Below, one piece after another: positions 14,031 through 45,211 of a stretch of DNA of 64,000 bases; position 1 is the stretch's first letter; each line of letters starts with the position of its first letter. The stretch is taken from the NCBI GenBank assembly GCA_003576905.1, contig QEVG01000012.1, forward strand, positions 31,458 through 95,457, written 5' to 3'. The translations under genes and the position numbers were made by a program. The notes beneath the pieces are model-generated. The model was not told where the DNA came from. It ran no database searches and saw nothing but the letters and a program-made list of their open reading frames with translations. Source of the stretch: Planctomycetota bacterium. Its GTDB lineage: Bacteria > Planctomycetota > Phycisphaerae > UBA1845 > UTPLA1.

Positions 14031-16676
<2,646 letters not shown>

Positions 16677-22001: not shown

Positions 22002-23942
22002 ATGGCCCTGGGCGCGAAACAGGTTTTGTCGCTCGACTGGAACCGCAGGGAACTGCGCATGGTCCTCGTGCGCCCGCGGTCCGACGGCGTCGATCTGCTC
22101 AAGGCCGTGTGCCTGCCCATCCCCGCCGAGGTGCGGGTCGAGGAGCCGCCCGCCTTCGGCGCGTTCATCCGCGAGTCGATGAAGCAGGCCCGGATTTCGA
22201 TCAGGAAAGTCATCCTCTGCGTGCCGCGTGACCAGGTCGTGCTGAACACGCTGAACGTTCCGCCGACACCGTCCGAGGAAATACCCGCGATCGTGCAGTT
22301 CCAGGTGGTCAAGGAACTCCCGTTCTCGGCCGATCAGGCCACGCTCGATTTCGCGGTGTGCGGTGCGTACGACCCCAAGGCCCCGAGCAGTGTGCTCGTC
22401 GCCGCCGTGCGCAACGAGGACCTGGCCTACTACGGCCGCGTCGCCGAGGCCGCCGGACTTTCGATTGAGTCGATCGGGCTTCGGCCCTATTCGAACATCG
22501 TCGCGGTCATGGGCAACGCGCCCGACCTGGCCCAGCGAAACGTCCTGGTCGTCGAGGTCGGCCCGCAGCTCACCGAGATCGACATCATCAAGAAAGGCGT
22601 CCTTGCCTTTTCGCGCAGCGCGTCGGTGGCGCTGGCCGAGTTCGGCGGCGGCGATGCCGAGGAGTACCGGGACAGCCGCATCACCGGTCCCAACGTCGCC
22701 AACCGCGAGCCTGACGAATGGTCAGGCCAGGCCATCTCCAACATGATGGTCGAGATCATCCGATCGCACGAAGCGTACCGCGCGACCGATCCCGGCTTCT
22801 CGCTCGACCACATCGTCGTGTGCGGATCGTCGGGACTCGAGGTGCAGCTCGCGCATTCGCTCGCGGCGCGCTTTGCGACGAAGGCCGATCTGTATATTCC
22901 CGACAAGGCCCTCGGCCTCTCGGCCCAGCGGGCACGCGAGTTGCGCGGGTTTTCCGCCGCCATCGGCCTGGCGATGGATCACGGCCGAAAAGGGCTCGCC
23001 CACTTCGACTTCCTCCATCCGAAGAAGCCGATCAGCAAGCGGCAGCTCCGGCTGCGGAAGCTTCCGGTCGCGGCGGCGACCATCGTGCTCTTTCTCGGTT
23101 CCGCAGTTACGTTCTACACCAAGTTCGTCTCTCCTCAGCTTGAAGCCGTCGAAAAGCTTCGCGACGAAGTGGCGCTGAAGAAGAAAGACGAAAAGAAGAT
23201 CAAGGATTTCAAGAGCCGCGTTGAGACCCTCGACGCATGGATTGAATCCGATCACGTCTGGCCCGAGGTGCTCGTCGCGCTGACCGAAGTCTTTCCCGAC
23301 CAGAAGGAGGCTTACGTTACGCGGCTCGACTTCGAGACGCGCAACCGGGGCCGGGGCGGCGGGCGCGAAAGCGTCGCCCGGCTGAAGTTCCGCACCGTTT
23401 CGCTCGGTGCCGTCAACGAACTGGCCAACCGCCTGCGCGAGGCCGGTTTCCGAAACGTCGTGCCCGGACGCGAAACGTCGTCTGGCACAAAGGACGCCTA
23501 CACGAAAGACACGGGCATCGACATGGAGGTTCCCGAGCGCGAAGTCCTGATGGCCTCGCGTGAAGCGCGCTTCCTCGAAGAGGAGGAGGATGCCGCGGAG
23601 CCTGTTTCGCCGGAATCGCCGCCGCCGGTCGAGCCATCGAACGCGAAGCCCGTCGAGCGAGGCCCGAAGAACGAATCGCGCCCGGCCGGATCCGATCCTG
23701 CAAACGGCGCGGCGCCTTCCGAGGAGAAGCCCGCGTCCCCCGCGGCTTCAGGTCCGAAAGCGCCGCACCCTTCGAACATCGGTTCCGCTGCGAATGCGCG
23801 GCCCGGCTCCGGCCGTGAAGCCGGCGCCGGCGGGCCGCCCGCCGCAGGGCCCGCCAAGGGACCGGTACGGTCCGCACCGGGTCGGCCTGATGGCCGCAAG
23901 GCCGTAAGCGCCCCGAAGCCCGGGCCGGGAGGGGGCGCATGA
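22002..23942 (+). CDS. PilM-PilN / GspL-like assembly protein
   Basis: A 646-residue fusion. Residues 1 to about 340 form a PilM/GspL-type actin-like ATPase domain, starting VLSLDWNRRELRMVLVRP. It includes NVPPTPSEEIPAIVQFQVVKELPF, the LVVEVGPQLTEIDIIKKG phosphate-loop region and DHIVVCGSSG. A basic stretch precedes one membrane helix at about 354-374, then a periplasmic PilN-like domain to about 520. The last 125 residues are Pro/Ala/Glu-rich low complexity. In type II secretion this inner-membrane platform component connects the cytoplasmic ATPase to the periplasmic parts. It overlaps the next gene by ATGA. Confidence 0.85.
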   Translation: MALGAKQVLSLDWNRRELRMVLVRPRSDGVDLLKAVCLPIPAEVRVEEPPAFGAFIRESMKQARISIRKVILCVPRDQVVLNTLNVPPTPSEEIPAIVQFQVVKELPFSADQATLDFAVCGAYDPKAPSSVLVAAVRNEDLAYYGRVAEAAGLSIESIGLRPYSNIVAVMGNAPDLAQRNVLVVEVGPQLTEIDIIKKGVLAFSRSASVALAEFGGGDAEEYRDSRITGPNVANREPDEWSGQAISNMMVEIIRSHEAYRATDPGFSLDHIVVCGSSGLEVQLAHSLAARFATKADLYIPDKALGLSAQRARELRGFSAAIGLAMDHGRKGLAHFDFLHPKKPISKRQLRLRKLPVAAATIVLFLGSAVTFYTKFVSPQLEAVEKLRDEVALKKKDEKKIKDFKSRVETLDAWIESDHVWPEVLVALTEVFPDQKEAYVTRLDFETRNRGRGGGRESVARLKFRTVSLGAVNELANRLREAGFRNVVPGRETSSGTKDAYTKDTGIDMEVPEREVLMASREARFLEEEEDAAEPVSPESPPPVEPSNAKPVERGPKNESRPAGSDPANGAAPSEEKPASPAASGPKAPHPSNIGSAANARPGSGREAGAGGPPAAGPAKGPVRSAPGRPDGRKAVSAPKPGPGGGA

Positions 23943-25516
23943 ACAAGCGCGAACGCACGTTGGCGATCATCGTCGGAGGCGCGATTGGGCTGACGGTCCT
24001 CTATCAGGCCGTCAACTTCATCTTTATCGCACCGGTGCGCCAGGCGAAGACGGATCTGGCCGACCTGGAGCGGGATCGCAACATGCTCGACGGCCTGATT
24101 CGCAGCCGGCGCAACCTCGCCCAGCGCTGGCTTGATTACTCTGCGAAGACGATTTCGTTTAACCGGCCGGAGGTGACGAACCGCTTCGCGCAGGACCTGA
24201 AGGACCTCGCCGAGAAGCACGGCTTCGCCAATCCGACGTTTACGCCGACCTCGGGAACGAAGATCGGCGCGAAGACGGAAATCTCCACCGCGGGATACCG
24301 CATCGCCGTGGAAGGCAGATACCCGAAGGTGCTCTTGTTCCTTCGAGATATCTACAAACTGCCCTATCTCACGGCAATCACGAAGATCAGCATCGCGCCC
24401 GTACTTATTCGCGGCCGCGCTCCGGACGAGGTGAAGACCGAGTTCACCATCGAAACGCCCATATTGCCGCAGATAGACAAGAAGATTTTCGAGGAAGTGG
24501 TCAACGCGACCACCATGCCGGCGGACGTTCTGGCGTCGGGCCCGCCGGCCCGCGAATGGGTTCGGCACGATGGAGAGGCCTACGGCCTGCTCGACCGGCG
24601 GAACATCTTCAAGCCCTACACACCGCCCCCCCAGAACGTCGTAATGGTCATCAACGACGACTGGAAGACCGTGGGGGCAAGAGTGCATTTTTACTGGGAA
24701 GGGGAAGTCCAGACGACCAAAGTCGACACAATTCCCAGCAAAGGACAGCTATCATTTACCGGCCCCGGCGACGTCATTGAAATCGAGGGTTCGTACGCCG
24801 ACGGAAAGACGTTCGGTCCCCAAAAGCTCGACTTCTCTTCGAAAAAGGACTGGACATACACCATTCCGGCGCATCATCCGCCGCCTCCGCCCGACTTCGT
24901 CCTGCTTGCGGTGGACAACAAGGACAAGAACCCCGTCGATTTCGACGTGATGCTGACGTTGAAGGACGGCCAGTCGCGAACGTACCCGACGATGCGCGCA
25001 CCGCCCGGCAAGGTCACCGACGTGCCGGAGTTTGAGGTGAAATCGCTGACGATCACCGCGACCTATTCGTCCGGAAAGAAGACGGCCCCGGCGACCTTTC
25101 AGCCCACGAAAGAAAAGCAGTTATTCGTCGTTCCGCCGGAGCCCGTCGAAACCGTCGCCCAGGCGGCTCAGCCCGTCAGCGACCCGCCGGCCGATCCGCA
25201 GTATACGGTTTCAGGCCTGGTGACCTACCGGGGGAACCACGAAATGATCGCCACGGCCGCCGGCAATAAGCGGGTGGTGATCGCGGCGGGCCAGCCCGCC
25301 TCGGTGGATGGCGGCGTCCTTCTGGGTGTTCATCCGCTGGGCGGCGTCGTGAAGATGCCGAGCGGCAGTTTCTATCTGTACCCGTTGGGGAAGAAGTTTA
25401 CGGATCGTGTTCGGCTGGAGGCCAGGGTGGAGGAAGAACTGCCGCAGGCGATCGACGCCTGGGCCTATGCCACCAAGACTCCGTCCGAGGACGGCGAGCC
25501 GGTAGGCAGCCAGTAG
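23939..25516 (+). CDS. PilO/GspM-like protein with extra periplasmic domains
   Basis: A 525-residue inner-membrane-anchored protein. A membrane helix at about 8-30 is followed by a coiled coil and a PilO/GspM-like ferredoxin fold to about 195 (AVEGRYPKVLLFLRDIYKLP). Two beta-rich repeats follow (about 233-310 and 318-395), each beginning with a VVMVINDD/VLLAVDNK-type strand and containing a Tyr-Ser/Ala-Asp/Ser-Gly-Lys turn. The last 100 residues (VSGLVTYRGNHEMIATAAGN, then LGVHPLGGVVKMPSGSFYLY) resemble the HR/PilP-type domain that contacts secretin N0; this last assignment is inference. It sits directly before the giant secretin, with an 85-nt gap. Confidence 0.75.
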   Translation: MNKRERTLAIIVGGAIGLTVLYQAVNFIFIAPVRQAKTDLADLERDRNMLDGLIRSRRNLAQRWLDYSAKTISFNRPEVTNRFAQDLKDLAEKHGFANPTFTPTSGTKIGAKTEISTAGYRIAVEGRYPKVLLFLRDIYKLPYLTAITKISIAPVLIRGRAPDEVKTEFTIETPILPQIDKKIFEEVVNATTMPADVLASGPPAREWVRHDGEAYGLLDRRNIFKPYTPPPQNVVMVINDDWKTVGARVHFYWEGEVQTTKVDTIPSKGQLSFTGPGDVIEIEGSYADGKTFGPQKLDFSSKKDWTYTIPAHHPPPPPDFVLLAVDNKDKNPVDFDVMLTLKDGQSRTYPTMRAPPGKVTDVPEFEVKSLTITATYSSGKKTAPATFQPTKEKQLFVVPPEPVETVAQAAQPVSDPPADPQYTVSGLVTYRGNHEMIATAAGNKRVVIAAGQPASVDGGVLLGVHPLGGVVKMPSGSFYLYPLGKKFTDRVRLEARVEEELPQAIDAWAYATKTPSEDGEPVGSQ

Positions 25517-25601: not shown

Positions 25602-28600
25602 ATGAACAGGCAACCACACTCGCTCACGGGATACGCGGCCATCCGCGCCGTTTCTCTGCTCGCGACGCTTGGACTGGGAACGCTCTCCCTCCGCCCTGCC
25701 CTTGTTTGTGCCCAGAGCGAACCGGCCGCGACCCAGCCCGCATCCACGCCCGACAGCCTGGAGAAGGCCCGCCGCGCCGCCCTCGAGTCCATCGCGAAGC
25801 AGAAAGCCGCCGCCACCAGCCAGCCCGCGGCGCAGCTGCCGGCCATGCCCCCTCCGGTCACGCCGCCGGTCAAGGCGCCGCCCACCGAAAAGCCCACGAC
25901 CGCGCCCCAATCGACGCCCCCCGTAAAGCCCGGTCCGGCCGCGCCGCCGCCGGCCAAGACACCGCCGGATGCCGCTGGAACGGCACCTATGCAGCCGGCC
26001 GCCCCGAAGGAGCCGGTCAAGGGCGAGTTCACGACGCTGAGTTTCACGGTCTCGCCGCCGAGCCCCGAGGACCGGAGCTATCGGTTTGATTATGAGAACG
26101 CGCCGTGGGCCGACGTGCTCAACGATTTCTCGCGCATGAGCGGACTGGCCTTTCTCAATCCGCCCGATCCGCCCATCACCGACAATCTCACCTTCCGCAG
26201 TCCGAAGGACATGACCTATCGGGAGGCCCTGGCCCAGTTGAACGACCTGCTGGTCAATCGTCCGCTGAACAAGTATCTGATCCGGCAGCAGGACACCTTC
26301 CTCGTCATCAAGCGCCTGCCCGACTGGATGCGCGAGATCGAGCCGAGCCAGATGTTCGACTCCTTCGAGGAGATGGAGGCCTCCGACCCCGACGACTACG
26401 ACATCGTCCTTGTGAACATGGAGGTTCCCGAGGGCTGGTCGCCGTACGAGATCATCGAGAAGTACCGCCCGCTCTTCACCGACACCTACGGCACGCAGGT
26501 CAACGGCAACCGCCTCGAACTGACCGGCATGGTCTGGGAGCATCGCCGGTTCCGAAACGTCGTGTTCAAACTGGTGGACATGACCGACGGGCCGCCGCCC
26601 TCCGATCCGCGGCCCATGCTGCGCATCGAGCTGAAGAACGCCCGCGCCGCCGACGTCCAGACGATGCTGCGCCAGCTCTATCCGCTGACGGCGCCCGCGC
26701 CCGCGGCTGGACGAGGCCCCGGCGTCGACCAGACAGCCGAACTGGCCAAGAAAGTCGACATCCTCTCCGACGTCAAGAACAACATCATCATCGTCAAGGC
26801 CCCGCCGCGCATGCTCAGCGAGATCGCGGAGATGACGGCGAAGCTCGACACCGGAACGGGCCTCACCATGCCGGTCATGAAAGTCGTCAAGCTCGAATTC
26901 GCCGACCCGAACACCCTCGCCGGCACGCTCAAGCCCATCTTCATGAAAGAGCAGCAGGCCATCATGAAGCCGGACGGCCCCTACGTTTCGGCCGAGCAGA
27001 AGGCCGACATGGAGCGCGATATCTTCCCCGACCCGGCGAGTAACTCGGTGATCATCATCGGCGGAAAGTCCGGCGTCGAGGACGCCGAGCGCCTGGTTCG
27101 CCAATGGGACACGCCGGGCGAGAATACCATCGACGAGATCATCGAACTCAAGCACGCCGACGCTTCGGACATCGCCGGGATTCTCGCGCAGATCTTCCCC
27201 GCTGCGCCCAAGCCGGGTCAGACGGGCGATAAGTTCACGCCGCGCACGAGCACGTCGCTCCTCGTGTCCGTCTCGAAGCGGACCTACGAGAAGATGAAGG
27301 CCCTCATCGCGAAGCTGGACGTGCCCGGCGAGGATGAAGAGCAGGAGCACATTGTCCAGCCGAAGGCGATTCCCCCCAGCGCCCTCGCCGCCGTCCTGCA
27401 GCAGGCCATGAGCGGCGGCGGGCCGGGCGCTCCGCGCATTGCGGCGCCGAAGCGACCGGGCCAGCAGCCGCCGGCCCCGCCCGCCTCACCCTCCGGCGCC
27501 GGTCCGCGCTTCATCCCGGACGACGGAACGGGCTATTTGATTGTTTACGCGGTTGCGGAAGACTGGGACCGGATCGAGCCGCTGATCAAGAAGCTCGATG
27601 ACAAGGCCGAGACCTATCAGCCGCGGCTGGCTGTCTTTGCTCTGGCACGCGCCAATGCGACCGACGTCGTGAACATGCTCCAGCAGATGTTCCCGGCCCA
27701 GCCGCCGGCCGCCGGCGCGCCCGCGCCGCAGCAGGTCAGCTTCTTCGCCGATCTCTACAACAACGCGGTGCAGGTTTTCGCGTCGAACGAGTTCATCGCC
27801 AAGATCACGCCATTCATCACGCAGCTCGACATCGAGGCGACCGCGCCGCTCACCGTCATCAAGCTCCAGCATGCCGACGCCGAGACGATCGCGCCGATCC
27901 TCGCCCAGACCGTCGGCGGAACCGCCGTCTCCTCCGCGCCGCAGATTCGCCCGCAGCCGGGCAAACCGGGACAGCCGCCGCAGCAGCCGGCGCAGACCGT
28001 CGCCCCGACCGGGGGCTCGACGCGGATCGTCGCCGAGCCGATCACGAACTCGCTGCTCGTCTCCGCGCCGCCCAAGGACATGGAGCAGATTCGCAAGCTG
28101 GTTGACGAGATCGAGGCGGAGGCCTCCGAACAGAAGGCCAAGACGGAGGCGACGCGCGTGATCATGACGGCGAGTCACCGGCCCGCCGAAGAACTCGTCG
28201 AGACGCTGAAGTATCTCGCCGCGCCGCCGAAGCAGCTTCCCGGCGGGCCGCGCGCCGTCGTCGCCAATCAGGAAGTCGCCGCCGCCGAGGCCGAAGGGCT
28301 CAAGATTGTCGCAAGCGGCCAGCAGGTCATCATCGACGGCCCGCGTGACCAGGTCGCCAAGGCCATTCAGCTTTTCGAGCAGATCGACGTTCCGCGCGAA
28401 GGCATGATATTCCGCAAGTACGCGGTGAACGACGCGGAAAAGGACGTCGTCAAGCTGCGCGAGATGCTCGCCCAGAGCCAGCCGCCGACGGTGCAGACCG
28501 GCACCGCGCCGGGCGGCAAGGGCGGGCCTGCGGCGCGCCCGGCGCCGGCGCCCAAGCCGTCCGCGCCGGAGTCGATCCTGATTCACTCCGACTCGGAGGA

Positions 28601-31600
28601 CAACACGATCCTCGTCGGCGCGCGGCTGGAGTCGGACCTGAAGCAGGTCGAGGACATCCTCCAACTGATCTTCCGTGAACCGGTCGCGCTCGAAGGCGGA
28701 CCGGAAGGCAGCACCGACGGCCTGCCGTTCTTCATGGTCAAACTCCAGTATCGCAAGGCGTTCGACATCGCCTTCGACGTGGAGGACATCCTCAATCCGG
28801 ACAGCAAGGACAACGGCCTGCGCTTCGACGAAGGCCCGACCGAGAAGCTGCTGATGGTCCGCAACTGCCGGCCGGGTCAGCGCGAGCGCGTGGAGGAAGT
28901 CATCAAGGTCTTTGACGTGCCGGAGAGCGGCATCACGCGCGAAGGATTCCGCATGCTGGATTCAGAGAAGATGCCGCCGGAGATGCTCGTGCGGCTCCTC
29001 CAGCAGCAGTACAACAAGCCGATCAGCATGATTCCCCTGAGCGACGCGGCGGGGCGCGTCAAAGTCATCGACATTCACGCCGACGAGGAACCGGCCGCGC
29101 CGGTCGAGCGGACGCGCTCCGGCGACATCAACCCATGCGTCCTGCCCGCGACCATGCTTGTGTCGCTCGCGTCGCTCCCGATCGGTCAGGCCCGGGCCAA
29201 CGAGTCGGCGGAACTTCTCGAACCCGCCGTCTGCCCGATCTGCCATCAGAGCCCGTGCAGCCTTCCGACGCAGCTTCTTCGGTCGCTTGATGCCATCGCG
29301 ATGGCCCACTCCGACGACGGGCTGGAGCCGGAGGATGAATCGCAGGCTCCCAGGACCGGCACGCGCGAATTCTCCGCAAAGGAACCGAAAGTCGTTCAGC
29401 CGGCCGGGGAAGTCGCAGCGGGCGATAACCAGCCGGAGGCGAAGTCGCGGGACGAAGGCGTCAGCTTCCTCTACGATGCCGAGTCCGGCAAGATCATCCT
29501 GAAGGGGCCCGAAGAGGAACTCGAGATCATCGAGGAGCTCATTGACGAAATCACCAGCGAGGATCAGCCCACCGTCTTTCGTGTTTTCCCGCTGAAGTAC
29601 GCCGATGTCAGCGTCGCCGCGCAGCTTCTCGAACAGGTGTTCAACCAGGGCCAGGCCGTCGCCGCCTCCGGCCGGCGCGGCCGCCAACAGCAACAGCCGC
29701 AGATGCCCGTGCCGATGCCCCAGCAGCAGGGCGGCCAGCCCGGGCAGCCCGGCAAGCCTGGCCAGCCGAACCAGGCCCAACAGCAGCAGATGATGATGCA
29801 GCAGCAGATGGCGGCGCAGCAGGGCCCGACGCGCGTGAAGGTCGTTCCCGACCCGCGCACGAAGAGCCTCTTCGTCGCGGCGGTGCTGTCCGATGTGCCG
29901 CTGATTATCGAGGTACTGAAGAAAATCGACGCCCCGGTGGACGCGCTCGAAAAAACGATCAAGATCTTCAACCTCGAGAACCTCGACGCGACGCAGGTCG
30001 TCGTCAATCTGCGCGAAGTGCTCGGGGTCCAGCCGCCGGCCTCGGCGCAGGGGCCGCAGCAGCGCGGCGGCCGGGGCTTCCCACAGCAGGGCGGCCAGCC
30101 CCAGGAACAGCAGATTGTCCAGATGCAGGGCCAGCAGGGGCAATCGGTGACGCTTTCCTCCACCGAGAGCATCGAACTGACCGCCGACGCCCAGACGAAT
30201 TCGATCATCGCAAAGGCGCCGCCGGACACGCTCGCGCTGATCGAGGATCTGATCGAGCAGCTTGAGGCCAGAACCAACACGACCAAGGCGGAGATGCGCC
30301 GCGTTCCGCTGGTGCATGCCCGGGCCACCGACGTCGCCACCATCGTCAAGGAAGTCGCCACGCAGGTCGTTGGCGCGGGCGGCGGCGGGGGCGGCCGGTT
30401 CAGCCGCCGCTTTGGCGGCGGCGCGCCGGGTGGCGGGGGCGGCGGCGGTTCGACTGGACAGGTGTCGGTGAACGCCGATGCCAGGACGAACAGCGTGATC
30501 CTCGCCGGCGCGACGAAGGACGTGGAGCGCGTGGCGCAGATCGTGAAGGAGATGGATATCCCGAGCGACGGCGGCGCGATTCAGCAGTTCACCGTGAAGG
30601 GCGATGCATCGGCGATCGCCGCGACGCTCAAGTCGCTCTATGTGACCGGCAATGCCACCGACGTAATCATCACCGGCGATAACTCGACAGGTGTCGTCGT
30701 GGTAAAGGCCCCGCCGAACCTGATGAAGGAGATCGGCGACCAGCTCCAGGCGATGGATGACAAGGTGGCCGGCACCAAGGAGATCAAGACGATCAAGCTG
30801 GTCCTGGCCGACCCCGAACAGGTCGCCATGCGTCTACAGGAAATCTTCACGGCGACGCGCGGCGCCGGCGGCGCGCGCCAGACCATTACGATCAAAGGCA
30901 ACAAGAACAACAGCACCCTGTACGTGATGGGCGCGGACGAGGAGACCTTTGAGCAGATTCAGGGCGTCGCTACCGGAATGGACATGCAGCCCTCCGGCAT
31001 CCAGGTGAAGCGGTTCCCCCTTCAGCACGCAAACGCGACAGAGATCAACACCCAGCTGACCGACATGCTTGTTAAGGCCAAGGCGAGCGGCGGGCTGGAG
31101 GGCGTCAAGCTTGACTTCGTCGGGGCCGTGCCTGACCCGCGCACGAATTCGCTGATCGTCACGGGCGGGCCGATCACCTTCCTTCTGATCGGTGACGTGC
31201 TCAAGGAAGTGGACGTCCAGCCGTCGAACGAGATCGCCCGCGACACGCGCTCCTATCAACTGCCGATGTCCGTCGACATCAACCAGATGGCCGCGAACAT
31301 CCAGGCGGCCTTCGCTTCGTCGCCCGGCGCGAAGACGGGGCTCGAGCCTCCGACCGTCACGCCCAATGCGGCGAGCAACATGCTGATCGTCACGGCCAAC
31401 GGACGCCAGCACGAGGAGATCAAGACGAAGATCATCGATCCGGTGGTCGCCGCCGTGGGGTCGGAGTTCGCAGACTATCGCGTCCCGCTGAAGTTCATCC
31501 GGGCCGAGGACGCCAAGGCGACGCTCGAGGACTTCATGGTCAAGTGGCAGCAGAGCCGCGGCGGCAAGCCCCAGGACCGCTTTGCGATCACCGCCGACCA

Positions 31601-34600
31601 GAACAGCAACTTGCTGCTCGTCAACTGCACGCCGGCCACGAAGGAGTTCATCGACAAGCAGCTCGTCGAGATCGACGTGCCGACCGGCAAGCGCGAGACG
31701 CGCTTCGTCACGCTCAAGTACGCGCGGGCCGACGAAGTGGCCCGAGCGATGGCGACGTCGTTCCAGGGCAAGACCGTCCCGAACAGCAAGGGCCAGTGGC
31801 CGGTCACCGCCGTGCCCGACGTGACGTCGAACACGGTGATCGTCACGGCCATGAGCGACCTGTGGCCCGAGGTGGATGCCATGGTTGCGGCCCTCGACGT
31901 GGCCGGCGACAGCACGCGCGCCGAGACGACGGTCGAACTCGTCAACACGCGCCCGGCGGACGTGGCTCAGAGCCTGCAGCAGGTCTTCAACGCCGCCATC
32001 GCCGGCAAGCCCGGCCGCACCGCGCCGACGATCACCGCCGTGCCGGGCACGACCCGGCTCGTGGTCTTTGCGACGGAAAGCGAACTCGCCCAGATCCGAA
32101 ATCTCGTGACGCAGATCGACGAGGAAGGCTCGAAGGGGCGGATGGTCCACACCGTCACCATGCCTGAACTCGTGCCCGCCAAAACGGTCGCCGAGGCGAT
32201 CAAGCAGCTCTTCGGCACGAACCAGCCCGACGGCATCAAGGCCGAGTATCACGAACCGACGAACACACTCCTCGTCAGCGCGACCGAGCGGGAATTCGCG
32301 CGGATCAAGGAACAGGTGATCGACAAGATTTCCACCCAGCCGACCATCGGCACGATGAAGCCCTTCCGCATTCCGCTGAAGTACGCCGTCGCGGACGAAG
32401 TGGCCAAGACGCTACAGGAGTTCTTCGACAAGAAGGCCGGGTTGAAGAGCAACCAGAGCAACCTGCCGCCGTGGATGCGCGGCAACGAGCCGGCCAAGCA
32501 GATTGAAAACCAGGTCTCCATCGTCGCCGAGCCGACCAGCAACATGCTGCTGGTCTTCTGCACCGACGTGACCAAGGAACTGATCGACGAGATCATCAAG
32601 GAAATCGATATCGACCCAACGACCAAGAGCGTCATGGAGATGGTCACGCTCAAGTACGTCGACGCGGCGGAGATGCTCGAAATCCTTACCGAGTATCTGA
32701 AGGTCTCGAAACGGACGCCCGAGGACGGCGGCCGTCAGTTCGTGCCCTGGTGGGCCGATCGCGAGCAGAAGTCCGAGGACAAGACTGTTCTCGCCGGGGA
32801 CATGCGCCTCAAGGCGGTGGACTCGCTCAACGCGATCATCGTTGTGGGCAGCAAGGATGGCGTAGCCGACGCCGTCGCGAAGATAAAGGAGCTGGACGTC
32901 GAACGCCCGGACAGCGCCGACGCCCCCCAGCGGCTGGCGCTTGCAAACGGCAACCCCACCGAGATTGCCGACACGCTCACCAAGCTCTTTGCCGACCCCA
33001 ACCTCATCAAGAGCAAGGGCGCGAGCTACATCGCCCCGATCATCGTGGCCGACGAGGGCACCAAGAGCATCATCGTTCGCGGAAAGTCGTCCGACTTCAA
33101 CCTGATCAAGAAGATGGTTGATACGCTCGACAAGGAGATGGAGGGCGATACGGGGGCGGGCGTGCGCGTGCTGGCCGTCCCCGCCGGGCGGGACCTGGAA
33201 GAACTCGCCCGCAACATCGAGAAGCGGATCAACGACGCAGAGAACAACCGCAGCCGGATTCAGAAGGACTACAAGCCGAGCCTGGTGAGCATCGGGGCCG
33301 ACATTCAGGCCCGCGCCCTGGTCGTGGCGGGCTCGCGCGGCAAGTTTGAGGAGGTAAAGGCAATCGTCGACGAACTCGTGGCGATGGCCCCGACCGGCGG
33401 GACGAAGCGCGTGGTCATTCCGCTCAAACAGCTTACGCCGCAGGAAGCGAAACAGCTTATCGAACAGTTCCAGCAGAGCGGCAAGGGCAAGAGCGGCCCG
33501 CGCTCCGATGCACAATGGACGCGTAACCGTCGCTACGACGTAGGACGAGGCGTAAGGGGTGGGCGCCAAGTTGTATGCAGTATTCGACTCAATCCGGGTC
33601 ACACTCTCGGGCTAATCAACGCGCTTCAGAACAGAGCGCGACCGGAAACCGTCGAATTCTGTGAGTCGACAGAATCGACGGAGACCGCTGGGGTCCATGA
33701 ATCCGATTCGAGTGGCACACACGCGATCGCCTGCGCCGGTTCGCTGCCGGTGATCATGATGCAGGTGGCCCTGTCGGGCGCCATGGCCCAATCGTCCGCG
33801 TCGCAGCCTGCGACCAGGCCGAGTGGCCCGGTCATCGGCACGATCCGTCCGCGAGCCGCCACCACCCAGCCCGCCGCCCGTCCGCCTCAGCAGCCCGCGC
33901 GGCCCGGCGCGCAGCAGCCCGCCGGCCGTCAGATGACCGCCGAGGACATGATTCGCTCGGCCGTTCAGCGGGGCCAGATGGACGCGACGCAGATGACGGA
34001 TGCCGCAAAGGAGGCACTTGGCCGCAAGCTGTCCGGCGCGCCGATCTCCGTCGCCGAGGCCGGGGCCGACAACATCGTCATCGAGGCCTCGGAAGAGGAC
34101 ATCGAAGTGATCATGTCCATCCTGGAGATGCTCGACACCGCCGCCCCCGGCAAGATCATTGAGTACATCGCCCTGAGCAAGGCCAGCGCGACCGATCTGG
34201 CCAAGACCCTGACCGACGTATTCAGCAAGGTCGAGCAGAAGGGCCAGCGGCAGGTCCGCCCCGAGGACAAGGTCGACATCATCGCCGACCAGCGCACCAA
34301 TGGCCTCTACATCGCCGCCACCGAAGAGAAGATGAAGCAGGTGCGGTCGCTCATCGAGCAGAATGAGATCGCCGCCGGCAAGGTCCTCCAGCAGGTCAAA
34401 ACTTTCACCTTCCAGAACCGGCGCGTCGCCGAGGTCGGCGAAGTCCTCAAGAAAATGGTGACGGCCTACCTGACCCAGAAGGGACTCGATCCCAAGCTGA
34501 TCCAGCTTGAAATCGACCCGCAGACCAACACCGTCTTCGTCACCGCCAACGAGACCGACCTGGCCTTCGTCACCCAGATCATCGCCGGGCTTGACGCCGC

Positions 34601-37600
34601 GCTGCCCCCGCCGAAAGAGGGCGAGGCCCAGCCCATCGGCGAGGCGGATGTGATGATCATCCCCCTGCGAATCGCCCAGGCCGATGCCCTGGGCACGCTG
34701 CTTTCCGACCTTCTCAAAAAGGCCGCGACCGGCGACACGCCGATGAAGGACTTTATCCGCCGCTTCCGCCTGCTGGACGAGCGCGGCGAGCCCATCGCGA
34801 CCGTAAACCTCGACCGGCCTATCGTTATCTTCGGCGACAAGGAATCGAATTCGCTGGTCATCGCCAGTACCAAGGCCAACTGCCTCATCATGAAGCAGGT
34901 GGCAATGGCCTTCGACAAGGAGCCCGCCCGGGCGGAGGTCGCCTACAAGGTCTTTACGCTCCAGAATGCCGACGCGACCGAAGTCGCCGAACAGGTGAGC
35001 AAGCTGCTTACCGACGGTGAGAACCTGACCGCGCGGCCCGGCAAGTCGGAGAAGTCCGGCGTGCCCGACGGCGAGGCCGGGGCGCTCGTGTACAAGGCCG
35101 TGGTGACGGCCGATGCCCGGACGAACCAGGTCGTGCTGGTCGGCCGGCCGGAGGCGGTGTCGGTGCTGTCGGACCTGGTGACAGGCCTGGACGTGAAGGG
35201 GCTGGACGTAATGCCCTTCACGCTGGTGCAGCTTGAATATGCCAGTGTTACGGCACTCGAAAAGGCCCTGTCTGAGATGATGAAGGAGCGGGCCGAGGCC
35301 CTGCCCAAGGGCACGAGCGCGAACGCCGGCAAGAGCGAGACGGTCATCATCAAGGGCGACCCGCGGTCCAAGTCGCTGATCATTGCGGCAAAGGCCAACC
35401 GGCTCGAGGAGCTGCGCGGACTTATCAAGCAGCTTGATGTCCCGTCGACGGCCCTCGTGGACGACATCCGGACAATCACGCTCCGGAACACCAGCGCTGG
35501 AGACCTCGCCACGAAGCTCAAGGACCTGTGGGAACAGCGGGCGGCCCAGCAGGAGGGCGGCGAGAGCGGATTTAAGCTCGAAGTGCCGGCCATCGTCGCC
35601 GACGAGCGAAGCAACTCGCTGATCGTCGCCGCCAGCAAGGGCGACTTCGACGCCATCAAGGGCGTGGTCGACAAGATCGAGGCCCTCGAGCTGAACCCGA
35701 TGGCGAACATCTACGTGCTTCGGCTCAAGTTCAACTCCGCGAGCAGTCTCCAGGCCGCTTTCAAGGCTCTGTTCGAGAAACGCGCCCAGATGCGATCAGT
35801 CGACGGCAAGGTTCGGCCCGAGGACGAGGTGGCCATCGAGGTCGACGAAACGACCAACTCGCTGCTCTTTGCCGGCTCGCGCGAGAACTACGACGTGCTC
35901 GAGCTCAAGGTCAAGGAACTCGACCAGGAACTCGGCGTGCCGGGCGTCGTCGAGTACTTCGTCTGCGAGAACGTGGGCGCCAACCGCGTGAAGGACACGA
36001 TCGAGTCCCTTTTCGAGGACAACGGCGTCTATAAGCCCGGAGCCACGGGCGAAAGCGAAGCCGCCCAGCGCCGTGAAAAGGTGACCGTCAGCGTCGACGA
36101 TCGCTCCAACACGCTGATCGTCTCCGCAAGCCCCGAAAACATGGCTCTCGTCCGCGAAATTTATCAGCGGATGAACAGCGTCACCACGCCCTGGGACGTG
36201 GCCATCACCAGGATGGTCGTTCTGGAGCACGCCGACTGCGTGAAGATCGCGGCGCAGGTCGCGGATTACTTTAAGAAGCTGGACGAACTGCGCGACACCG
36301 GCGGCGAGGGCAGCACGAAGTCGGGCTTCGGAATCACCGTCTTCTCCGACGAACGAAGCAACCGGATCATCGTTGGCGGTACCAAGGACGGCATTGATAG
36401 CGCCGTCGAACTCATCAGGCGGCTCGACGTGCCGCCCGGCAAGCCCGGTCAGCTCACCGAGGTCTACACGCTGAAGGAGGCCCCGGCCGCCAAGATCGGC
36501 GAAATGATCAAGGCTGTCTTCGAGGAGCGCAACAAGCCGCGCGAGGGCGGCGAGGGCGCGGGCGTCCAGGTCCCGAGCGTCACCGTGACGGTCGAGCCGG
36601 ACGCCGGCCGCAATGCCCTGCTGATTAACGCCTCGCGCGAGGATCACTTGCTGATCGCCGACCTGATCTCGAGACTCGACCGCCCTTCGACCATCCTCCA
36701 GATGGCCCGCGTGATTCCGCTGGAAAAGGCCCCCGCCGAGCGAATCAAGGAGATTCTGGAGGAGCTGTACCAGAGCGGTGAAGGCGGCGAGGGCCGCGAA
36801 GGCGGAAAGGTCATCAGTGTCGTCGAGGACAAGCGGACGAACTCGGTCGTGGTGACGGCCCCGCCGGGCGAGCTGGCCAATATTGTGGCACTGGTGGAGC
36901 GCCTCGACACCACGGAAGTCAAGGGCCAGGCCGAGATCGGCGTCATACTCTGCGAGAATGAAGACGCGGAGAAGATGGCCGAAGTGCTCAACCAGATCAT
37001 GACCGGCCAGGGCGGCGAAGGGAGCACCGGCTCCACTGCCGCCACCGCGGAAGAGGGCGGGCAGCGGGCCCTTTCGTCGATGCTCATCTCCTATGCCGAC
37101 CGGGACCCGCGGGGACGCGAGATCTTTCTCAAGACGATCCGCGAAAACGTCCAGATCACCTTCAGCACGCGGACCAATAGTGTCATTGCTGTGGCTCCTC
37201 CGCCGACGCTTCGCCTCATCGAGAGCCTCGTCCGCCGGCTCGATACGATCCAGAAACGGTCGGTGCTGGTGAAGGTCTTCTCGCTGCGCAACTCGGACGC
37301 GACCAAGATGGTCGAGATCCTCGAGAACATGTTTGCCCAGGAAGAGGGCCAGGAAGAGGAGGCCGAGTTTCAGCGCGACCGCTCGGTCGAAGTCGAGGGC
37401 GGCACGACCTCCACCGGCGGCGTGCCGACGGCGGCCTCGCAGGAAGGCGACACGCGAAAAGGAACCTTCGGCCGGCCGAAGACGACGTTCGTACCCGATG
37501 AGCGGACGAACTCGATCATCGTCGCCGGCTGGCCGGAGGACATCGACGTTGTGGCCGACGTCATCGACCAGCTCGACTCGCGGCCGATCCAGGACCGCGA

Positions 37601-39011
37601 CAATTTCGTCTACACGCTGGTCAACCAGACGGCCGACGAAATGCAGGCCGCACTTCAGGAGTATTTCGACGCCGAGGTCCAGCGCCTCGAAAGCCTTGGC
37701 GAAACAGTCTCTCCGCAGCGGCTGATGGAGCAGGAGGTGTCGATCATCTCGCACCCTGAGTCCAACCAGCTCGTGATCTCGGCGAGCCCGCGCTACAAGA
37801 ACCAGGTTATCTCCATCATCGAGCAGCTTGATACCGCTCCGCCGCAGGTCATGATCCAGGTCATGATCGCGGAAGTAACGCTCGACGATCGCTTCGAGAT
37901 GGGCCTTGAGTTCGCGCTGCAGGAACTTCGCTTCAGCGAGACCGCCGTCGCCGACTCCAACGGCATCCTGCAGAGCAGCCATTTCGACGTGGTCGGCGGA
38001 ACCGACCTCGGCGCGGCCGGAAGCGGCCTGGGCGGCTTCTCGTTCACCATCACCGGAGAGGACTTCAACTTCCTCGTTCGCGCCCTTCAGGCCGACAGCC
38101 GCCTGGAGATCATCCAGCGCCCGATGATCATGTGTCAGGACAATCAGCAGGCGACGATCCAGATCGGCCAGTCCGTCCCGACGCCGCAGGGCGCGCAGAC
38201 CTTCGGCGGCCAGACCTCGACGCAGGTGACCTACACCGATGTCGGCGTCATTCTTAACGTCGAGCCGCACATCAACCCGGACGGCTTCGTCTATATGCTC
38301 GTCGAACCGGAAATCTCCTCGATCACCGATTCGACGATCCAGATCGCGCCGGGTTCCTTCGCCCCGATCTTCAACCGCCGCACGGCATCGACGAACGTAG
38401 CCGTGAAGGACGGTGAGACCGTGGTCATCGGCGGCCTGATCACCACCAGCGAAACCGAAAGCGAAAGCAAGGTGCCGCTGCTCGGAGACGTGCCGGGCCT
38501 GGGCATGCTGTTCCGCACGACCAACCGGCTCAAGAACCGCACCGAGTTAATGATCGCCCTCACGCCGAAAGTCGTGCGCACCGTCGAGGATGCGCGCCGC
38601 CTGAGCATCGAGAAACGCGACGAGTCCGGCATCATCACCGACGAGATGAAACAGAGCCCGCTGTTTGATCGCCTGCGCATCGAGCCGCCTGCCGAAACGC
38701 AGATCGAGGACTTCGAGACGTTGCCGGGCCAGGAAGAGGATATGATCCTCCAGGCGCCGCCCGTCGAGACCGCACAGCCCCTGCTTCAGCCGCCCCCGGT
38801 GGTCAGTCCCCGGCCCGTGATGCAGACGCCGCCCGGCCAGATGGTGCCGGTCACGCCGCCCCAGGTTCCGCCGCAGGCGCCGCCGTCTCCCCGGCCGGCA
38901 ACGCAGCCTCCAAAGTACGGGCCCAAGCCCACGCGATACGGCCCCGTGGTGCCGTCCGGCGAGGACGTCGTCGCCCGGCGAAACGCCGATTCGACGGGCG
39001 CCGGGCAGTAA
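25602..39011 (+). CDS. Giant secretin with about 40 tandem N-domain repeats
   Basis: A 4469-residue uninterrupted frame. It has a signal peptide (about 1-38) and a Pro/Ala/Thr-rich linker to about 145. An N0/STN-like domain (FDYENAPWADVLNDFSRMSG to LVIKRLP, about 160-240) and one further related domain follow. From residue 339 to about 4077 come about 40 secretin N-domain-like units of 70-95 residues, each an LkyADA...evLeelF half and an aDertNSLIV...I..lI..LD half. The pore domain (about 4079-4330) is normal: PPQVMIQVMIAEVTLDDRFE, TYTDVGVILNVEPHI, VAVKDGETVVIGGLI, VPLLGDVPGLGMLFR, LMIALTPKVV. A Pro-rich tail ends the protein. GspD and PilQ usually have three or four N domains and 600-900 residues. 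The protein would form an outer-membrane channel with an extremely long periplasmic part. It lies in an operon with pseudopilin-like, L-like and M-like genes. Confidence 0.9.
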   Translation: MNRQPHSLTGYAAIRAVSLLATLGLGTLSLRPALVCAQSEPAATQPASTPDSLEKARRAALESIAKQKAAATSQPAAQLPAMPPPVTPPVKAPPTEKPTTAPQSTPPVKPGPAAPPPAKTPPDAAGTAPMQPAAPKEPVKGEFTTLSFTVSPPSPEDRSYRFDYENAPWADVLNDFSRMSGLAFLNPPDPPITDNLTFRSPKDMTYREALAQLNDLLVNRPLNKYLIRQQDTFLVIKRLPDWMREIEPSQMFDSFEEMEASDPDDYDIVLVNMEVPEGWSPYEIIEKYRPLFTDTYGTQVNGNRLELTGMVWEHRRFRNVVFKLVDMTDGPPPSDPRPMLRIELKNARAADVQTMLRQLYPLTAPAPAAGRGPGVDQTAELAKKVDILSDVKNNIIIVKAPPRMLSEIAEMTAKLDTGTGLTMPVMKVVKLEFADPNTLAGTLKPIFMKEQQAIMKPDGPYVSAEQKADMERDIFPDPASNSVIIIGGKSGVEDAERLVRQWDTPGENTIDEIIELKHADASDIAGILAQIFPAAPKPGQTGDKFTPRTSTSLLVSVSKRTYEKMKALIAKLDVPGEDEEQEHIVQPKAIPPSALAAVLQQAMSGGGPGAPRIAAPKRPGQQPPAPPASPSGAGPRFIPDDGTGYLIVYAVAEDWDRIEPLIKKLDDKAETYQPRLAVFALARANATDVVNMLQQMFPAQPPAAGAPAPQQVSFFADLYNNAVQVFASNEFIAKITPFITQLDIEATAPLTVIKLQHADAETIAPILAQTVGGTAVSSAPQIRPQPGKPGQPPQQPAQTVAPTGGSTRIVAEPITNSLLVSAPPKDMEQIRKLVDEIEAEASEQKAKTEATRVIMTASHRPAEELVETLKYLAAPPKQLPGGPRAVVANQEVAAAEAEGLKIVASGQQVIIDGPRDQVAKAIQLFEQIDVPREGMIFRKYAVNDAEKDVVKLREMLAQSQPPTVQTGTAPGGKGGPAARPAPAPKPSAPESILIHSDSEDNTILVGARLESDLKQVEDILQLIFREPVALEGGPEGSTDGLPFFMVKLQYRKAFDIAFDVEDILNPDSKDNGLRFDEGPTEKLLMVRNCRPGQRERVEEVIKVFDVPESGITREGFRMLDSEKMPPEMLVRLLQQQYNKPISMIPLSDAAGRVKVIDIHADEEPAAPVERTRSGDINPCVLPATMLVSLASLPIGQARANESAELLEPAVCPICHQSPCSLPTQLLRSLDAIAMAHSDDGLEPEDESQAPRTGTREFSAKEPKVVQPAGEVAAGDNQPEAKSRDEGVSFLYDAESGKIILKGPEEELEIIEELIDEITSEDQPTVFRVFPLKYADVSVAAQLLEQVFNQGQAVAASGRRGRQQQQPQMPVPMPQQQGGQPGQPGKPGQPNQAQQQQMMMQQQMAAQQGPTRVKVVPDPRTKSLFVAAVLSDVPLIIEVLKKIDAPVDALEKTIKIFNLENLDATQVVVNLREVLGVQPPASAQGPQQRGGRGFPQQGGQPQEQQIVQMQGQQGQSVTLSSTESIELTADAQTNSIIAKAPPDTLALIEDLIEQLEARTNTTKAEMRRVPLVHARATDVATIVKEVATQVVGAGGGGGGRFSRRFGGGAPGGGGGGGSTGQVSVNADARTNSVILAGATKDVERVAQIVKEMDIPSDGGAIQQFTVKGDASAIAATLKSLYVTGNATDVIITGDNSTGVVVVKAPPNLMKEIGDQLQAMDDKVAGTKEIKTIKLVLADPEQVAMRLQEIFTATRGAGGARQTITIKGNKNNSTLYVMGADEETFEQIQGVATGMDMQPSGIQVKRFPLQHANATEINTQLTDMLVKAKASGGLEGVKLDFVGAVPDPRTNSLIVTGGPITFLLIGDVLKEVDVQPSNEIARDTRSYQLPMSVDINQMAANIQAAFASSPGAKTGLEPPTVTPNAASNMLIVTANGRQHEEIKTKIIDPVVAAVGSEFADYRVPLKFIRAEDAKATLEDFMVKWQQSRGGKPQDRFAITADQNSNLLLVNCTPATKEFIDKQLVEIDVPTGKRETRFVTLKYARADEVARAMATSFQGKTVPNSKGQWPVTAVPDVTSNTVIVTAMSDLWPEVDAMVAALDVAGDSTRAETTVELVNTRPADVAQSLQQVFNAAIAGKPGRTAPTITAVPGTTRLVVFATESELAQIRNLVTQIDEEGSKGRMVHTVTMPELVPAKTVAEAIKQLFGTNQPDGIKAEYHEPTNTLLVSATEREFARIKEQVIDKISTQPTIGTMKPFRIPLKYAVADEVAKTLQEFFDKKAGLKSNQSNLPPWMRGNEPAKQIENQVSIVAEPTSNMLLVFCTDVTKELIDEIIKEIDIDPTTKSVMEMVTLKYVDAAEMLEILTEYLKVSKRTPEDGGRQFVPWWADREQKSEDKTVLAGDMRLKAVDSLNAIIVVGSKDGVADAVAKIKELDVERPDSADAPQRLALANGNPTEIADTLTKLFADPNLIKSKGASYIAPIIVADEGTKSIIVRGKSSDFNLIKKMVDTLDKEMEGDTGAGVRVLAVPAGRDLEELARNIEKRINDAENNRSRIQKDYKPSLVSIGADIQARALVVAGSRGKFEEVKAIVDELVAMAPTGGTKRVVIPLKQLTPQEAKQLIEQFQQSGKGKSGPRSDAQWTRNRRYDVGRGVRGGRQVVCSIRLNPGHTLGLINALQNRARPETVEFCESTESTETAGVHESDSSGTHAIACAGSLPVIMMQVALSGAMAQSSASQPATRPSGPVIGTIRPRAATTQPAARPPQQPARPGAQQPAGRQMTAEDMIRSAVQRGQMDATQMTDAAKEALGRKLSGAPISVAEAGADNIVIEASEEDIEVIMSILEMLDTAAPGKIIEYIALSKASATDLAKTLTDVFSKVEQKGQRQVRPEDKVDIIADQRTNGLYIAATEEKMKQVRSLIEQNEIAAGKVLQQVKTFTFQNRRVAEVGEVLKKMVTAYLTQKGLDPKLIQLEIDPQTNTVFVTANETDLAFVTQIIAGLDAALPPPKEGEAQPIGEADVMIIPLRIAQADALGTLLSDLLKKAATGDTPMKDFIRRFRLLDERGEPIATVNLDRPIVIFGDKESNSLVIASTKANCLIMKQVAMAFDKEPARAEVAYKVFTLQNADATEVAEQVSKLLTDGENLTARPGKSEKSGVPDGEAGALVYKAVVTADARTNQVVLVGRPEAVSVLSDLVTGLDVKGLDVMPFTLVQLEYASVTALEKALSEMMKERAEALPKGTSANAGKSETVIIKGDPRSKSLIIAAKANRLEELRGLIKQLDVPSTALVDDIRTITLRNTSAGDLATKLKDLWEQRAAQQEGGESGFKLEVPAIVADERSNSLIVAASKGDFDAIKGVVDKIEALELNPMANIYVLRLKFNSASSLQAAFKALFEKRAQMRSVDGKVRPEDEVAIEVDETTNSLLFAGSRENYDVLELKVKELDQELGVPGVVEYFVCENVGANRVKDTIESLFEDNGVYKPGATGESEAAQRREKVTVSVDDRSNTLIVSASPENMALVREIYQRMNSVTTPWDVAITRMVVLEHADCVKIAAQVADYFKKLDELRDTGGEGSTKSGFGITVFSDERSNRIIVGGTKDGIDSAVELIRRLDVPPGKPGQLTEVYTLKEAPAAKIGEMIKAVFEERNKPREGGEGAGVQVPSVTVTVEPDAGRNALLINASREDHLLIADLISRLDRPSTILQMARVIPLEKAPAERIKEILEELYQSGEGGEGREGGKVISVVEDKRTNSVVVTAPPGELANIVALVERLDTTEVKGQAEIGVILCENEDAEKMAEVLNQIMTGQGGEGSTGSTAATAEEGGQRALSSMLISYADRDPRGREIFLKTIRENVQITFSTRTNSVIAVAPPPTLRLIESLVRRLDTIQKRSVLVKVFSLRNSDATKMVEILENMFAQEEGQEEEAEFQRDRSVEVEGGTTSTGGVPTAASQEGDTRKGTFGRPKTTFVPDERTNSIIVAGWPEDIDVVADVIDQLDSRPIQDRDNFVYTLVNQTADEMQAALQEYFDAEVQRLESLGETVSPQRLMEQEVSIISHPESNQLVISASPRYKNQVISIIEQLDTAPPQVMIQVMIAEVTLDDRFEMGLEFALQELRFSETAVADSNGILQSSHFDVVGGTDLGAAGSGLGGFSFTITGEDFNFLVRALQADSRLEIIQRPMIMCQDNQQATIQIGQSVPTPQGAQTFGGQTSTQVTYTDVGVILNVEPHINPDGFVYMLVEPEISSITDSTIQIAPGSFAPIFNRRTASTNVAVKDGETVVIGGLITTSETESESKVPLLGDVPGLGMLFRTTNRLKNRTELMIALTPKVVRTVEDARRLSIEKRDESGIITDEMKQSPLFDRLRIEPPAETQIEDFETLPGQEEDMILQAPPVETAQPLLQPPPVVSPRPVMQTPPGQMVPVTPPQVPPQAPPSPRPATQPPKYGPKPTRYGPVVPSGEDVVARRNADSTGAGQ
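29080..29460 (+). other. Insert 1 within an N-domain repeat of the giant secretin
   Basis: About 128 residues (about 1160-1287) interrupt the tenth repeat between its helical half (MPPEMLVRLLQQQY) and its NSLIV-type half (FLYDAESGKIILKG). The insert has a hydrophobic stretch with an Ala-x-Ala end (MLVSLASLPIGQARA, about 1184-1198), resembling an internal signal peptide. The Cys cluster CPICHQSPC (residues 1211-1219) lies in a protein otherwise almost free of Cys. An acidic Pro-rich linker follows. Codon use is like the surroundings. Confidence 0.6.
33475..34045 (+). other. Insert 2 within an N-domain repeat, with atypical codon use
   Basis: About 190 residues (about 2625-2815) split another repeat between KQLIEQFQQSGKG and VAEAGADNIVIEAS. 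The first 75 codons (about 33503-33735) use A/T in about half of third positions and include CTA, AGA, GTA, ACA and several CGA codons, unlike the strongly GC3 sequence on both sides; the product is Arg-rich with no visible domain. Then comes SLPVIMMQVALSGAMAQ (about 2713-2729), which looks like a signal-peptide core and cleavage site, and an ATQPA-type Pro-rich linker similar to the true N-terminus of the protein. Confidence 0.6.
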
Positions 39012-39060: not shown

Positions 39061-39885
39061 ATGAAGAGAATGTCGGCAGTATGGCGACCCACGATTCCGG
39101 TCCTCGCGGCCGCGATGCTGACCGGCTGCGCCATGCAGCAGGACGGGAAGACGCCTCAGTGGATCTGGAAGGACCCGATCGTCCGCAGCAGCGCGGAGGA
39201 AAGCGGGCCGGTCGAACAGAACATCGTCCGCGTCAACAAGTTCTTCAGCCAGACACCCTGGCTTTCATATGCCAACGACGGCAGCCGCCGGGTGGACGGC
39301 GTCACGTTCTCGATTTACCTCGAGGGTCCGAACTCCCCCAAGGGCGTCTTCGGAACCGGCGTCATCACGGTGACCATGTACCGCCTCGACGCCGATGAGA
39401 CCGGCCGCGAAGTCGCGAAGAAGATCTATGAGTGGGAGTACGACGCGCAGGCGGCCTATCCGTTTCGCGCCAAGACTCAGACCGCGCTCGGCTGGGGATA
39501 CGGCATGCGGCTGCGCTGGGGAGAGAACCTCGACGTCGAGGGCCGCCAGGTCGCCTTCGTCATCAAGTACATGCGCGAAGACGGACGGACCGTCAGTTCC
39601 TCGCGCCAGGTGCTGAAGGTACCCGGCCCGGAAGGCGCTGGGCCGATCGTTCAGCGCACCGGTGGCGTTGTGGATGCTCCGCCCCCGAAGCCCAAACAGG
39701 TAACCAGCCGCGTCCGTTCCATTCAGCCCACTGAGACGACATCGGATGCGTCGACGGCTCCGAGGCAGCCGGTGGCGGCCCCGGCACCGCGCACACGACC
39801 CAAGCCGCGCGTGACCGTGACCGTTCAGCCAAAGCCCGATCGCCCGAAGCCCCGCTACGCCGGGCCGACCTCGGGAGAAGAATAG
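39061..39885 (+). CDS. Lipoprotein downstream of the giant secretin
   Basis: A 274-residue protein with a good lipoprotein signal: RPTIPVLAAAMLTGC, lipobox LTGC with Cys at residue 23. The mature domain (about 45-185) looks beta-rich (VDGVTFSIYLEGPN, GVITVTMYRLD, LGWGYGMRLRWGENLDV). The C-terminal 80 residues are Pro/Thr/Arg-rich. I do not recognise the domain. It starts 49 nt after the secretin stop and is in the same operon, so a role as a pilotin or as an outer-membrane accessory of the secretin is a reasonable guess, but it is much longer than known pilotins. Confidence 0.8.
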   Translation: MKRMSAVWRPTIPVLAAAMLTGCAMQQDGKTPQWIWKDPIVRSSAEESGPVEQNIVRVNKFFSQTPWLSYANDGSRRVDGVTFSIYLEGPNSPKGVFGTGVITVTMYRLDADETGREVAKKIYEWEYDAQAAYPFRAKTQTALGWGYGMRLRWGENLDVEGRQVAFVIKYMREDGRTVSSSRQVLKVPGPEGAGPIVQRTGGVVDAPPPKPKQVTSRVRSIQPTETTSDASTAPRQPVAAPAPRTRPKPRVTVTVQPKPDRPKPRYAGPTSGEE

Positions 39886-44348: not shown

Positions 44349-44359
44349 TGCCGGACCCT

Positions 44360-45037: not shown

Positions 45038-45127
45038 GCACCGCGATTTTATCCGCGGACGCCGTACGAAGGGGATCGTATGCGCCGGTGCGTGCCGACG
45101 GTGAGTCGTCCCATGTCGCGATTCGAT

Positions 45128-45156
45128 TTGGCAGGTGGAGAGGTGGCGAATAGAAT
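45128..45156 (+). promoter_or_regulatory. Sigma-70-like promoter of the large exported protein gene
   Basis: TTGGCA (45128-45133), a 17-nt spacer and TAGAAT (45151-45156). The predicted transcription start is near 45163, giving a leader of about 50 nt before the ATG at 45212. This favours that start over in-frame codons further upstream. Confidence 0.6.
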
Positions 45157-45211
45157 AAGATCAGACAGAGTTTCCCCCTTGCCTTCCGGCCCCGACCCGC
45201 CGGCCCCTGCC

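Follow-up and report, generated by a model that had tools for sequence, protein, structure and literature searches.

The stretch analysed here (the window) comprises 64,000 nucleotides of a Planctomycetota bacterium (assembly GCA_003576905.1, contig QEVG01000012.1, positions 31,458 to 95,457 of the forward strand; GTDB class Phycisphaerae, order UBA1845, family UTPLA1), and it contains a single frame that encodes a giant secretin. The frame runs exactly from an ATG at 25602 to a stop codon ending at 39011, and its product of 4469 residues has a calculated mass of 482.6 kDa, signal peptide included. The protein is a member of the secretin superfamily, with a pore domain (PF00263) that is preceded by repeats of the secretin N domain (PF03958). 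The gene and its parts are as follows.

25602..39011, +: giant GspD-type secretin, 4469 residues, about 41 N units and a C-terminal pore (coordinates, translation, Pfam, own profile)
25602..25712, +: N-terminal signal peptide, about residues 1–37 (by eye)
26028..26321, +: possible N0-like region, about residues 143–240 (by eye; no Pfam or PDB support)
26622..28916, +: module A, nine N-unit matches, residues 341–1105, the last weak (profile, E 0.49)
28932..29024, +: first half (strand-helix) of the N unit split by inset 1, about residues 1111–1141 (by eye; unreported by the profile)
29025..29414, +: inset 1, about residues 1142–1271, with a hydrophobic segment at 1179–1196 (29136–29189) and a CPICHQSPC cluster
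29415..29552, +: second half of the N unit split by inset 1, residues 1272–1317 (profile positions 29–73)
29580..33377, +: module B, N units, residues 1327–2592 (profile)
33414..33515, +: first half of the N unit split by inset 2, residues 2605–2638 (profile, alignment A1, model)
33516..33998, +: inset 2, residues 2639–2799, homologous to the gene boundary of split relatives (profile, A1)
33726..33791, +: signal-peptide-like segment within inset 2, residues 2709–2730, ending in A-x-A-Q (A1, motif rule)
33999..34139, +: second half of the N unit split by inset 2, residues 2800–2846 (profile, model)
34158..37841, +: module C, N units, residues 2853–4080 (profile)
38082..38579, +: Secretin pore domain, residues 4161–4326 (Pfam; best PDB match PulD 6hcg, E 2.9e-51)

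The Pfam Secretin family matches residues 4161–4326 at E 8.2e-50 (169 bits, cut-off 27.5), and Secretin_N matches 36 stretches of the protein (1036 bits). A unit profile iterated on the secretin itself gives 41 matches over residues 341–4080, among them a few half units and one weak match (1046–1105, E 0.49), and 39 units at a stricter domain E of 0.01; in the stricter set, 35 of the 38 gaps between units measure 4–18 residues. Many units contain long low-complexity loops, and two long insets (about residues 1142–1271 and 2639–2799) each interrupt one N domain. An earlier note, made from the letters of the window alone, had described a secretin of a secretion gene cluster with about 40 tandem N-domain-like units, a canonical pore at the C-terminus and no known description. 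These parts of it stand, and the domain search found N domains throughout the array rather than a few among unrelated sequence. Its N0-like domain was not recovered, and it mentions neither the insets with their split N domains nor the signal-peptide-like segments, nor the division into two or three genes in relatives described below.

The uninterrupted frame of 13.4 kb, also reported in the earlier note, is retained in independent assemblies. In the same family (f1), 15 of 17 genomes, counting the own one, have open frames of 4261–5207 residues, some of them on multi-megabase contigs (G099, G108, G109 and G112); in the other two, the secretin lies on contigs of 8.4 and 11.6 kb. There is no N in the window, and exact direct DNA repeats within the frame reach at most 18 nt; the frame is therefore not a recent or mis-assembled array. 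Third-position GC is 0.70–0.96 per block of 50 codons, with codons 2651–2700 (0.54), within inset 2, as the sole exception. This block and the existence of separate genes in related genomes would fit an assembly or frame error that has joined several genes, but such an error is hardly credible against the independent assemblies and the lack of long repeats.

By sequence, the secretin is closest to GspD, the outer-membrane channel of the type II secretion system (T2SS), rather than to PilQ or SctC. The GspD model TIGR02517 scores 1018 bits (cut-off 351); the PilQ (367, cut-off 284) and SctC (285, cut-off 238) models also pass, all scores being inflated by the repeats. The ten best PDB sequence matches are all T2SS secretins, and the gene is encoded with T2SS core genes. 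The neighbours are listed below.

18268..19275, +: GspI-like minor pseudopilin, start codon uncertain (weak NCBIfam match, E 0.0012, falling far short of the cut-off)
19272..20213, +: GspJ-like minor pseudopilin (Pfam T2SSJ match, E 5.1e-5, short of the cut-off)
20210..21952, +: GspK-like protein (family match)
22002..23942, +: PilM/GspL-like platform protein (family match)
23939..25516, +: GspM/PilO-like platform protein (position and by eye; no family match)
39061..39885, +: lipoprotein conserved 3' of the secretin gene, candidate pilotin (alignment; role proposed)

The GspI-, GspJ-, GspK- and PilM/GspL-like neighbours agree with the claim of the earlier note that the secretin belongs to a real secretion or pilus-like operon. 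Clusters of relatives add further components, that of L118 also matching F, G, H, K and PilM and that of L107 matching E, G and PilM. In an alignment of the downstream lipoprotein from ten loci, the G-C pair of the lipobox and three further columns are invariant, and the protein may be the pilotin. Four other secretin frames, of 616–1066 residues, are present in the genome. Standard GspD shares with the giant the pore domain, the N-domain fold and the neighbouring T2SS genes, but is described as having four N domains, N0–N3 (PMC10329019), as compared to about 41 units here; the protein is therefore a variant and not a standard GspD. It also differs in the two- and three-gene forms of its relatives and in its internal signal-peptide-like segments.

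Giant secretins are common among the relatives. A homology search with the pore region, limited to proteins 0.55–1.75 times as long as the query, scored 1487 candidates, of which 628 reached E <= 1e-3; the 120 of them listed, the window secretin among them, are 2494–6165 residues long and hold 23–61 units, with a median of 40. Homologues of more than 2000 residues, which the earlier note had proposed to look for in other planctomycetes, thus exist, their named bearers being Phycisphaerae, Phycisphaerales and Planctomycetota metagenome-assembled genomes (MAGs). Starting from family f10, a second search scored 1428 candidates and retained 484, with 120 of them listed. Secretin matches were found in 114 of 114 genomes searched of the order and in 297 of 298 genomes of the class. 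Frames of 4025–4916 residues occur in 14 of 27 genomes of family f3, and in both of the two other f3 genomes fetched the pore frame starts at a contig edge. Among the matches listed, frames of more than 3000 residues were also found in f6, f10, f16, f17, f18, f22, f24, f26 and f27, and none in f11, f12, f21, f23 and f25; genomes of one or two contigs have them as well (G124, 5073; G141, 4634; G254, 4856; G324, 3776 residues). The largest tower fetched, L109 (G152), has 6165 residues and 62 unit matches.

Secretins of Pirellulaceae and Gemmataceae are placed near those of the order on the pore tree, but have four to eight times fewer units than the giant. The 24 non-giant loci of these families have five units in 19 cases, six in two, four in one and none at the cut-off in one. 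The remaining locus, L080 from a Gemmataceae MAG, encodes a frame of 2425 residues and 10 N units, which is intermediate in size and does not belong to the giants.

In families f2, f4, f5, f7 and f8, pore-containing frames among the matches listed do not exceed 1908 residues. A survey of 32 loci (L036–L046, L115 and L130–L149) identified a pore-less N-unit gene directly upstream of the shorter pore gene, on the same strand, in 30 of them. The three-gene form is found in two of these, both from f2, namely L115 (1281, 1243 and 1600 residues) and L130 (at least 895 residues, cut by an edge, then 869 and 1441), and the two-gene form at 27 loci, with an edge-cut upstream frame in six. A further gene is possible wherever the first upstream frame is edge-cut (L042, L135, L136, L137, L142, L148 and the three-gene L130), and the gene number is unsure at L149 (G093), with its 111 N and overlapping upstream frames.

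In each of nine pairs inspected by eye, the upstream gene ends in a strand-helix half unit and a tail that is basic or of low complexity. Its downstream partner opens with a signal-peptide-like sequence, continues with a low-complexity linker and then supplies the strand-strand-helix half. Profiles of the two halves were built solely from the 12 fused proteins of alignment A1. In 26 of 30 upstream genes the best match lies at most 90 residues from the C-terminal end, and in 29 of 30 downstream genes it lies among the first 420 residues; a few matches are weak. In addition, reciprocal-best units show the joined split genes to be collinear with the fused protein, most regularly in module C. From these matches and the collinearity it follows that inset 2 (2639–2799) corresponds to a gene boundary, and the comparison of sequences places the B/C boundary of the split relatives in the same N domain that inset 2 interrupts. 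Inset 1 lies, by eye, at the place of the A/B boundary.

Inset 2 also carries a hydrophobic segment ending in A-x-A-Q. By a rule written after the sequences had been seen, this segment is present in 53 of the 64 close giants of the own group (P0001–P0064, own included); the same rule gives 0.08 matches per protein after shuffling and is satisfied by 20 of 169 other giants. The segment of inset 1 is less regular (11 of 64 by this rule). The alanines at –3 and –1 and the glutamine at +1 are aligned in 12 of 12 rows of A1, in L050 and L051 by way of an aligner gap (their own site being A-x-G-Q). Conservation in A1 is 0.52 for the segment, 0.40 and 0.42 for the remainder of the inset, and 0.62 and 0.63 for the flanking units. 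No conserved start codon is present at the segment, although some relatives have one. We read this segment as the signal peptide of the next module, which appears to have been swallowed in a gene fusion.

The fused chain may be exported whole and stay one polypeptide, in which the signal-peptide-like segment has no role, and we give such an inert scar somewhat less than an even chance. An internal segment would cross the translocon wrongly oriented for signal peptidase, and the fused f3 proteins L047, L048 and L049 have a hydrophobic inset 2 but no A-x-A-Q in the stretch inspected, both of which fit a scar; its retention in most of the own group (53 of 64) and its better conservation than the rest of the inset (0.52 as compared to 0.40 and 0.42) do not. 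Alternatively, module C could also be started from a codon inside the fused frame and yield a separate exported chain. An in-frame ATG lies at a fitting distance in L052, L053, L073, L076 and L079; however, neither the secretin of the window nor L072 has a start codon placed so as to yield a complete signal peptide, and text resembling a ribosome-binding site is found at one of 12 loci (L079), which makes an internal start very unlikely. A bolder inference is signal-peptidase processing of the fused chain. The giant might then be an envelope polyprotein, exported as one precursor and cut internally by signal peptidase I into three chains, which would be locked together via the split N domains into a tower of about 40 rings and more than 100 nm, made from two or three genes in sister families. 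Internal sites of the kind that this idea needs are those given above for both insets by the post hoc rule, and we consider it somewhat unlikely.

Tree analysis of the pore region (65 rows) places the fused giants of f1 and of f3 (with f6) in separate clades with split families between them, and the fused giants of other families of the class outside. Most giants fetched from outside the order have no gap of more than 90 residues between units; f16 (L122) and some others have one. As several branches are weak, the number of splits and fusions is uncertain, but a path of splitting followed by fusion seems likelier for f1 because of the signal-peptide-like segments in its insets.

The predicted structure of the split region (model A) fits both halves of the N unit split by inset 2 onto N1–N2 of XcpQ, and a neighbouring unit pair in it packs as XcpQ N1–N2. 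In Thermus PilQ, six stacked N rings are reported in a complex of 350 Å (PMC5745081). Because of the predicted fold and this precedent, our best guess is that each unit stacks as a ring and lengthens the channel. The 41 units would then measure about 157 nm at about 38 Å per ring, a height that assumes about 120 Å of the 350 Å of PilQ to be pore and cap, and about 100 nm at 25 Å per ring. Most matched solved GspD entries have 15 chains, and a 15-mer of the secretin would amount to about 7.2 MDa.

We propose, with a probability of roughly 0.6, that the protein is a GspD-type T2SS outer-membrane channel with about 41 N units in one chain of 4469 residues, likely forming a ring stack that makes a periplasmic conduit of about 100–150 nm. 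About 15 protomers would line up as in solved GspD, with every unit contributing one ring. The tower would consist of three modules, A, B and C, the last with the pore, and the modules would join where the strand-helix half of one and the strand-strand-helix half of the next complete one N domain; in the fused proteins, the halves would remain tied by a long loop that retains the signal-peptide sequence of the next module. The pseudopilus would work through the tube, and secretion would thereby cross the wide, variable planctomycete periplasm.

Several observations weigh against this proposal. Model A has a mean predicted local distance difference test score (pLDDT) of 63.6 and a predicted template modelling score (pTM) of 0.28, and some templates fit it worse over the same two domains (3ezj, root-mean-square deviation 11.8 over 122); model B is also poor (pLDDT 63.6, pTM 0.32). 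GspE- and GspF-type genes are on other contigs of the genome, and none adjoins the secretin gene. In known systems N0 contacts the inner-membrane platform and, in GspD, meets GspC; here Pfam gave no N0 match in the secretin and a PDB sequence search with residues 141–336 found nothing significant (best match an unrelated fibre protein, E 0.074). With generic half-unit profiles, orphan first halves were recovered from no more than 9 of the 32 upstream genes and orphan second halves from 27 of the 32 downstream genes; at the two A/B boundaries tested, these profiles recovered no half of either kind. Two of the 32 loci surveyed (L036 and L037) have no upstream N-unit gene, but both lie in genomes that resemble joined scaffolds.

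Rings might be confined to the last few units, with the other 30 or more serving as a tether, flexible like beads on a string, or as a folded bundle, either of which would extend or attach to the inner membrane, cell wall or cargo. The long loops in many units, the low confidence of the models for stacking and the greater regularity of module C in collinearity with relatives would suit such a tether. The linkers, mostly of 4–18 residues (35 of 38 gaps), the XcpQ-like packing of the predicted pair and the stacking of six of six N domains in Thermus PilQ, as far as described in PMC5745081, argue the other way, and we regard a tether as unlikely.

As a ring stack, the giant would resemble Thermus thermophilus PilQ, whose extra N domains are described as stacking into rings that reach deep into the periplasm; PilQ has 757 residues and six rings (PMC5745081). 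According to a 2021 review, these six rings set it apart from all known secretins (PMC8578077), and in the literature consulted it is the largest characterised secretin, as compared to about 40 units here. A periplasmic conduit formed by a separate protein has been reported for RcpA with RcpC of the Tad pilus; RcpC is not described there as secretin N domains (PMC12307814), whereas the extra proteins of the giant's relatives are N-unit arrays cut inside a domain. The average secretin had 555 residues in a 2016 survey (PMC4827864), and a survey of proteins of more than 5000 residues found Planctomycetota enriched, the word secretin being absent from its text (PMC11573180). Our literature search, with preprints and most subscription journals outside its coverage, found no description of a giant or split secretin, in line with the earlier note.

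For Planctopirus limnophila, of the order Planctomycetales (PMC11131199), an enlarged and variable periplasm is reported, with crateriform structures that link outer and inner membrane, and the uptake of macromolecules by planctomycetes is described as unexplained (PMC5394234). Our best reading is that this is a T2SS whose secretin may be built as a long tube to bridge an enlarged periplasm of this kind, and the protein would thus make an open question of cell biology testable: what spans a periplasm of 100 nm, and how a pseudopilus would work through such a tube. That a widespread group has about 40 units, whether encoded by one, two or three genes, suggests that selection keeps the tower as a whole. 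With its split N domain, the tower would offer a natural example of a ring module to which two polypeptides each contribute a part, and the segment retained inside the chain would allow the capture of an export signal by gene fusion to be tested.

Unlinked N-unit genes in G031 and G035 were considered as candidates and rejected. The fetched pieces contain N runs and the genomes look like joined scaffolds; the L037 frame opens with unrelated protein sequence, and near-identical unit text is found in L124 and L125. Loci L036, L037 and L124–L126 belong to these genomes (G035, G031), which are single records with N runs inside genes and an unrelated protein in frame with the secretin.

Elsewhere in the window, an open frame at 44246–48871 encodes 1541 residues with no Pfam match. 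A gene for a VKOR-DsbA fusion (39916–41205), of a kind associated with disulphide formation, lies two genes downstream of the secretin, whose inset 1 bears the CPICHQSPC cysteine cluster. A DUF6600 protein is encoded on the minus strand (16755–17891) between a ClpB-type chaperone gene (14031–16676) and the T2SS genes. On another contig (G000, C54, 638–8829, minus strand), five matches to T2SSE-family ATPases follow in a row over about 8 kb.
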